This document shows positions 19,279 to 19,548 of a stretch of DNA of 26,505 bases, in pieces. The notes under the pieces are model-generated. The model was given only the letters and a program-made list of their open reading frames with translations. It was not told where the DNA came from and did not search any database. How positions within the stretch are numbered: the stretch's first letter is position 1; each line of letters starts with the position of its first letter. The stretch is from a virus: the IMG/VR virus record IMGVR_UViG_3300022871_000094, positions 1 through 26,505 of that record, one strand, 5' to 3'. The position numbers and the translations under genes are program-made.

Positions 19279-19516
19279 GAGCAAGTAGGGTACCCCCACA
19301 CACACATATATATATATATATATATATAGTAAGTACTTATGAGAGGGTGAGGGGTTGAGCAAGTAGGTGAGCAAGTAGTGAGCAAGTGGTGAGCGAGAGG
19401 TGCGTAAGTAGGGTAGGCTACTTGCTCACATTGGAGGGTAAGTGAGCAAGTAGGTCTAGCCCTTACCCCATAAGGAGTTACCGCTGTTTTTAGGGCTACT
19501 TGCTCAGTACTTGCTC
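19279..19516. repeat. Iteron-like repeats, putative replication origin
   Basis: Consensus GAGCAAGTAG or a close variant occurs at 19279-19288, 19357-19366, 19369-19378, 19380-19389 (GTGG end), 19391-19400 and 19402-19411 (both degenerate), and 19444-19453. Its inverse CTACTTGCTC occurs at 19418-19427 and 19496-19505, and GTACTTGCTC at 19507-19516. Five copies between 19357 and 19411 are spaced 11-12 bases apart, about one helix turn. A GGGTAAG/CTTACCC inverted repeat frames the copy at 19444. The 350-base region from 19202 to 19548 carries no credible gene. It touches the primase-helicase 3' end, so a replication origin is likely. Confidence 0.7.
19297..19328. repeat. CA/TA dinucleotide tract
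   Basis: Five CA units run directly into eleven TA units (19307-19328). The TA tract melts easily and could serve as the duplex-unwinding element of the origin next to the iterons. It may also expand or contract between isolates or during sequencing. Confidence 0.8.
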
Positions 19517-19522
19517 TAGTAT

Positions 19523-19542
19523 GGGTGGGTGGGGTAGTAGGG
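19523..19542 (+). other. G-quadruplex motif at the edge of the origin
   Basis: Four G-runs (GGG, GGG, GGGG, GGG) with loops of 1, 1 and 5 bases lie between the last iteron and the primase-helicase stop. This fits the usual G3+N1-7 quadruplex rule on the plus strand. It may influence priming or replication-fork direction. Confidence 0.45.
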
Positions 19543-19548
19543 TGTATA

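Follow-up and report, generated by a model that had tools for sequence, protein, structure and literature searches.

The window analyzed here is a 26,505-nucleotide stretch of viral DNA, and its minus strand encodes, at 19549–21426, a protein of 625 aa that combines a Prim-Pol domain, an AAA_25 (RepA-like) helicase and a winged helix, and that we propose as a replication initiator. The Prim-Pol domain (PF09250, E 7.7e-20) occupies residues 25–160, the helicase was recognized as PF13481 (E 3.6e-31), and the C-terminal part weakly matched a family of phage DNA-binding proteins (E 0.0028). The AF2 model of residues 265–625, built with 41 relatives, had a mean pLDDT of 91, and its last part is made up of three helices and a wing of two strands. 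The isolated end domain (AF2 pLDDT 82.6) resembles PadR/MarR winged helices (Foldseek E about 1e-3). This predicted winged helix spans approximately aa 545–613 (19588–19794, minus strand), with the recognition helix at aa 578–590 containing Ala579 and Arg582, where residue 1 of the model is counted as aa 265. The helicase core is related to the RecA-fold core of RSF1010 RepA by profile (E 2.7e-8) and by fold (TM 0.73 on the RepA length, PDB 1g8y), RadA ranks above RSF1010 RepA in both lists, and the helicase may act as a hexamer. A sigma-70 region 4 protein (17818–18369) and a PAPS-reductase-like protein (22868–23620) are encoded on opposite sides of the helicase region.

Directly at the 3′ end of this gene, where the first-pass annotation had located it, lies an array of short repeats. 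The annotation counted around ten copies of a 10-base element in both orientations, and ten copies of TGAGCAAGTAG or its variants were indeed found at 19278–19517; the span had been given as 19279–19548, and its start is corrected to 19278, where the first repeat begins. This first iteron, TGAGCAAGTAG, was located by the repeat scan at 19278–19288 on the plus strand. Five further plus-strand copies are found at 19356–19366 and 19368–19378 (both exact), 19379–19389 (one mismatch), 19390–19400 (three mismatches, in phase) and 19401–19411 (two mismatches), and their starts are separated by 12, 11, 11 and 11 bp, in agreement with the five copies at 11–12 bp spacing described earlier. The remaining copies are exact at 19418–19428 (minus), 19443–19453 (plus) and 19496–19506 (minus), and carry two mismatches at 19507–19517 (minus). 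Iterons 7 and 8 form an inverted repeat (19418–19429 with 19442–19453), one example of those present in the region. In total, six iterons are exact, one has one mismatch, two have two and one has three. Between iterons 1 and 2 runs a 22-bp TA tract (19306–19327), a candidate melting site, which leaves one copy beyond the tract and nine on the gene side. An inverted repeat, the TA tract and a G-quadruplex motif (19523–19542, plus strand) had all been noted before and are present.

The exact repeat is confined to this site. All six copies of exact GAGCAAGTAG, four on the plus and two on the minus strand, fall inside 19279–19505 and none is found elsewhere in the 26,505-base record, in which the reversed control pattern has zero copies. 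When up to two mismatches to TGAGCAAGTAG were allowed, nine sites were obtained at 19278–19517 together with four scattered ones (4381, 5870, 14015 and 24421); the tenth iteron is the copy at 19390, which has three mismatches and preserves the phase, and another three-mismatch match at 19530, inside the G-rich stretch, was left out of the count. A single 10-mer reaches 8 copies in the best 270-bp tile here, whereas three dinucleotide shuffles of the complete window gave no more than 3. The densest repeat of the window is a different and unrelated one: at 25554–25834, within the ORF 25341–25904, there is a dense tandem repeat of the CAGATCAGCT type with 17 copies of one 10-mer per 270 bases, and it aligns with itself in shifted register against a near-identical contig.

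The 270 bases had been described as lacking a gene. A 128-aa minus-strand ORF (19203–19589) crosses them, starting within the 3′ end of the helicase gene and spanning the entire iteron region; it had no PHROG family match at E 0.1. Two features expected of an iteron-type origin were observed: many short repeats lie beside the proposed initiator gene beyond chance, in the window and also family-wide as shown below, and an AT-rich stretch, the TA tract, adjoins the repeats in the window.

The array is conserved in a near-identical contig of 42,988 bases (G001), which matches window positions 1323–26505 at 99.75%. It keeps all iterons, differs over 19250–19560 at 19290–19292 only, and has its six exact iteron copies all at the same site. 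Window positions 1–762 match G001 at only 83%, and the divergence of 1–1322 is either a recombination boundary or an assembly join. The first 126 bases of G001 (loci L038–L040) are repeated 3 bases short of the contig end, a pattern that a circular or terminally repeated genome of approximately 42.9 kb would show.

For comparison with more distant relatives, helicase loci were taken from virus contigs and genomes, using the best 80 of 146, 80 of 168 and 80 of 127 in the family searches and up to 30 loci in each genome search. The helicase half was detected at E 1e-20 in 12 of 369, 6 of 385, 38 of 392 and 20 of 396 sampled genomes. An initial survey covered 161 loci; 34 of 151 3′ regions exceeded the best of 20 shuffles by at least 2 repeats, against 1 of 160, 1 of 148 and 2 of 129 control regions. 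The larger set consisted of 334 loci with the helicase, excluding L001–L007 and L015–L040; 239 of them offered both a winged helix that could be aligned and 450 bases of 3′ DNA, and filtering to less than 75% identity left 169, among which 70 had strong clusters and 61 of these were well registered. Significant clusters, judged against the best of 30 shuffles, were thus found at the helicase 3′ end in 70 of 169 relatives, compared with 7 of 169 mid-gene and 6 of 162 upstream regions, and an excess of at least 2 over the best shuffle was seen in 46 3′ regions, in none inside the gene and in one upstream. The expectation that relatives keep the repeats is borne out as a tendency: 70 of 169 have a strong cluster, and the other 99 are below the threshold.

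Other ways of following the repeat were tried and set aside. As a marker, two copies of exact GAGCAAGTAG within 20 bases retrieved 23 virus-contig loci, none of which, apart from L032 (the near-identical contig), had more than 5 sites with at most one mismatch per 300 bp. A family matrix built from half of the set found at least 3 sites (threshold 7) in 39 of 65 3′ regions of the held-out half, against 24 of 65 mid-gene, 8 of 62 upstream and 13 of 59 far-downstream regions; it was not used as main evidence, since coding composition is a partial confounder and the window scores weakly on it.

The clusters vary in position: of the 70, 25 fall within the helicase frame downstream of the winged-helix codons, 26 run across the stop codon, and the remaining 19 are outside the gene. 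Many relatives have repetitive coding tails, and the commonest same-strand spacing is 9 bp, equal to three codons (61 cases); the tail EHLEHLEHLEH of L182, for example, fits GAGCATCTT every 9 bases, as is found in that locus. These properties are what would be expected if the clusters were low-complexity coding tails or chance repeats with no function in DNA binding. We consider this explanation highly improbable, since all 70 clusters use both orientations, 19 of 70 are fully outside the gene like that of the window, and the cores of the repeats track the recognition helix; it is already disfavoured by the code described below. In L010–L013 the frame continues beyond the winged helix through a linker to a short Cys-rich, zinc-ribbon-like end (such as CSACGTTENVTRFYEPWWVVRC), and repeats such as TGAGCAAAC are found in the linker-coding DNA of L011.

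The other features of the window are shared to different degrees. In the strong-cluster loci, the 3′ region contained the more AT-rich 30-mer in 53 of 67 comparisons with mid-gene and 52 of 67 with upstream regions, so that an AT-rich stretch beside the 3′ repeats is a tendency. The AT-richest stretch has at least two iterons on each side in 32 of 70 loci, against 19 expected by chance, and this arrangement is therefore not general. G-quadruplex motifs occur in 15 of 169 3′ regions, 2 of 169 mid-gene and 8 of 162 upstream regions; the motif, which the annotation had counted as part of the origin, is not a family feature and was rejected as part of the mechanism, and the one at 19523–19542 is probably incidental. 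The association with a Prim-Pol gene as such was not upheld either: in ten relatives scanned, AAA_25 was present in all ten, Prim-Pol in two and a DnaB N-terminal domain in one, and therefore the repeats associate with the helicase and its winged helix. In the closest distinct relative, L008 (43–45% identical), a DnaG-type zinc finger is found where Prim-Pol would be, and approximately ten copies of the TGAGCAAGT and TGAGCGCCTTAG types were seen by eye about 0.9 kb after the helicase gene with a short TA run beside them. This locus, whose cluster is more than 450 bases away, is outside the 169, as is plasmid pCG2.

We then aligned the repeats of the 70 loci without reference to the protein. 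From one starting word, they fell into a single register with 5.2 bits, compared with 1.6–1.9 bits in ten column-shuffled nulls begun identically. The family repeat has approximately the form T G (G/A) (G/C) C A (T/C) C T T (G/C) G, or TGnnnnnCTT in short; the window repeat has the TGAGCA half as in the family and lacks the CTT half, and it scores weakly on the family matrix.

To relate repeat to protein, all 289 variable protein columns were scanned for covariation with the 12 repeat positions in the 61 well-registered loci. Column 322 of the recognition helix headed the ranking (z 8.7 for position 5 and 6.6 for position 6). Column 341, which belongs to the second strand of the wing, came next (z 7.5 for position 9), and column 319, located three residues before 322, was third (z 6.5 for position 3 and 6.7 for position 4). 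With the window removed, z was 7.6 and 6.1 for column 322 and 5.7 and 6.1 for column 319. When all 70 loci were scanned, column 322 was again first (z 7.0) and column 319 just eighth. Six of the ten top columns are in the ATPase, those outside the winged helix having z of 4.6–6.4, and the winged-helix columns as a group are only modestly higher (p 0.052 for the maximum, 0.0098 for the mean). A Mantel test was rejected as evidence because it does not separate the winged helix from the ATPase: controlling for the ATPase, the winged helix gave a partial r of 0.195 (p 0.007), and with the roles exchanged the value was 0.207 (p 0.012).

The correspondence between residue and base could be written out directly. 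Where residue 319 is A, bases 3 and 4 of the core are AG (10 of 11 loci); R is accompanied by GC (13 of 19), K by GG (4 of 6) and G by CG (3 of 4). Where residue 322 is R, bases 5 and 6 are CA (27 of 32); E is accompanied by GG (4 of 7) and F by AC (3 of 3). The association of R322 with C at position 5 has a Fisher p of 3.9e-7, a value that ignores relatedness. In a leave-one-out prediction of positions 3–6 from the two residues, 152 of 213 bases were right (71%), compared with a maximum of 0.636 in 1000 shuffles and of 0.614 in 200 random ATPase column pairs, and the core TGAGCA of the window was predicted correctly from A579 and R582.

The code was also applied to the 38 loci with usable residues that lack a strong cluster and had not been used to derive it, with an automatic dictionary compiled without the window. 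Their 3′ regions contained 50 predicted cores, against 9.1 expected and a maximum of 19 in 100 shuffles. Mid-gene regions had 8 against 8.7 expected, and upstream regions had 16 against 8.9, which is below their shuffle maximum of 20. When predictions were swapped between loci, the mean was 17.7 and the maximum 32 in 500 trials. The predicted cores were distributed as at least two in 11 loci, one in 13 and none in 14, and the test contained no new residue pairs. A hand-made dictionary, which had the window among its sources, found 63 cores against 11.4 expected in 44 loci; two residue pairs that do not occur among the strong loci, with A or I in column 319 and K in column 322 (loci L322 and L331), gave four predicted cores each. 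Strong covariation and the prediction of cores from helicase residues would fit binding of the repeats by the proposed initiator, and the winged helix of the helicase appears to read the repeats beside its own gene.

A different protein of the phage or host, such as a separate initiator, a partition protein or a terminase, might bind the repeats, the helicase merely following. Such a division of labor has a precedent in RSF1010, where iterons are bound by RepC and the helicase is another protein, RepA (PMC4234260). We judge it quite unlikely for the present family, given that the cores in many loci vary with two residues in the recognition helix of the helicase itself and that these residues predict cores in loci unused for the code.

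Repeats were also counted in named plasmids and phages. Ten named stretches were taken and the downstream regions of nine were analyzed, L210 being left out. The best 9-mer counts per 600 bases, obtained without shuffles, were 9 for pCG2, 8 for Boilgate, 6 for OneinaGillian, 5 each for L202, L203 and L208, 4 each for L204 and L205, and 3 for L209. In pCG2 (L201, NC_004534), a small Corynebacterium glutamicum plasmid, nine copies of the GTATGTAAGTGG type lie at 2337–2740 directly after the stop of a Prim-Pol/AAA_25 gene, and this is the densest repeat of the plasmid. pCG2 is a good bench model. In two cultured phages, repeats of the GTCGGTGCA and GGTGTGACA types occupy the gap after the AAA_25 gene, at 4024–4261 in Mycobacterium phage Boilgate (L207) and 4030–4200 in Microbacterium phage OneinaGillian (L206), respectively; other stretches of the same loci equal or exceed these counts (18 and 8). 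L202, L206 and L207 are among the 70 loci, are poorly registered (1.03–1.05) and are outside the scope of the code, and L205 belongs to the 169 and has no strong cluster.

The proposal of an iteron origin served by one initiator, made in the first-pass annotation, is supported by this comparative evidence. We consider it quite probable that the region is such an origin and that the adjacent Prim-Pol/RepA-like helicase is the initiator, which would bind the iterons through its C-terminal winged helix. Ala579 and Arg582 of the recognition helix would read the core TGAGCA, and protomers would assemble on this phased array of forward and inverted copies. The TA tract would then melt, the hexameric RecA-fold helicase would thereby be set on the opened strands, in effect loading itself, and the fused Prim-Pol domain would prime synthesis. 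Binding at its own gene, helicase assembly, melting of an AT-rich stretch and priming would together constitute a mechanism like that reported for SaPI Rep and proposed for pRN1, and it is the most economical reading of the computed repeats, their 3′ recurrence in the helicase family, the winged-helix model and the code.

The code itself indicates recognition and not initiation, and the winged helix may bind the repeats chiefly as a control site, for autorepression, copy number or incompatibility, with replication starting elsewhere. Cumulative GC skew, a check suggested with the original proposal, gave no support to an origin at the iterons: in the window and in the 42,988-base contig it marks no origin and follows the gene strand, with the iteron site in a flat stretch, and it was rejected as an origin marker. 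The iteron region is 1.2 kb with just small unassigned ORFs, and an operator there is possible. On the other hand, the 70 clusters lie 3′ of the helicase gene or inside it, where an operator controlling it would be unusual, the region tends to include an AT-rich stretch, and the precedents for a 3′ iteron array beside an initiator helicase are origins. No sigma-70-like promoter was found in 19000–19700, a scan that carries little weight here. Taken together, a control site in place of an origin seems unlikely.

With an origin as the preferred interpretation, the layout can be compared with known systems. The helicases of SaPI/PICI elements are of the SF3/D5 type superfamily, the helicase of P4 alpha differs in fold from the RecA-fold AAA_25 helicase, and lambda O is not a helicase. 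In SaPI/PICI Rep, the C-terminal domain of the helicase recognizes iterons immediately 3′ of its own gene beside an AT-rich stretch (PMC7581432 and PMC6092414), and Cch2 is placed in the D5 family (PMC7581432). The putative origin iterons of the window and its relatives likewise lie immediately 3′ of the gene for the proposed initiator helicase. The helicase here, however, is RecA-fold, AAA_25/RepA-like and RadA-like rather than SF3/D5, the elements are phages, plasmids and unassigned genomic loci and not PICIs, and the iterons are often within the coding tail (25 of 70). P4 alpha unites primase, helicase and a winged helix binding origin repeats in one protein (PMC4234260); a C-terminal winged helix is predicted here as well by AF2 models and fold matches, whereas the primase is TOPRIM in P4 and Prim-Pol PF09250 here. 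The pRN1 protein ORF904 also joins Prim-Pol, helicase and C-terminal winged helix and has an essential element directly 3′ of its gene, but the helicase is SF3 and the origin is a 100-bp stem-loop without iterons (PMC4234260), while the 3′ element here is an iteron array. In the RSF1010 RepA/RepC/RepB′ system, iterons are recognized by the separate RepC (PMC4234260), whereas here this role would fall to a winged helix on the helicase, which also has the primase fused to it. Lambda carries iterons inside the initiator gene O (PMC7157519), as do 25 of 70 relatives and unlike the window, in which the iterons are outside the gene.

The system would work like SaPI/PICI and P4 origins with a helicase of another fold, and because the fold differs it is not a member of those families. 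Since a similar origin layout is combined with an unrelated helicase fold, the analogy suggests convergence of the 3′ layout across helicase folds. A Prim-Pol/AAA_25 protein is reported in a Roseobacter phage, the word iterons being absent from the passages concerned (PMC11288001), and other initiators are treated in PMC7145576 and PMC7157519. In the titles and abstract beginnings of the open-access papers listed, we recognized no description of iterons read by AAA_25 helicases; subscription papers are mostly outside this scope, and the result is not proof of absence.

For the family as a whole, it is fairly likely that AAA_25/RepA-like helicases with a C-terminal winged helix are widespread and undescribed self-recognizing initiators of phages, plasmids and genomic elements, with origins at or inside the 3′ end of their own gene. 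Their recognition would follow a modular two-residue code, in which the recognition-helix residue just ahead of the conserved Thr specifies core bases 3–4 and the residue two positions after this Thr specifies bases 5–6, so that the core could be read from the protein and vice versa. With the two-residue code, origin recognition by a replicative helicase can be tested directly through point changes, and the sequence of a phage or prophage genome could be used to find its origin.
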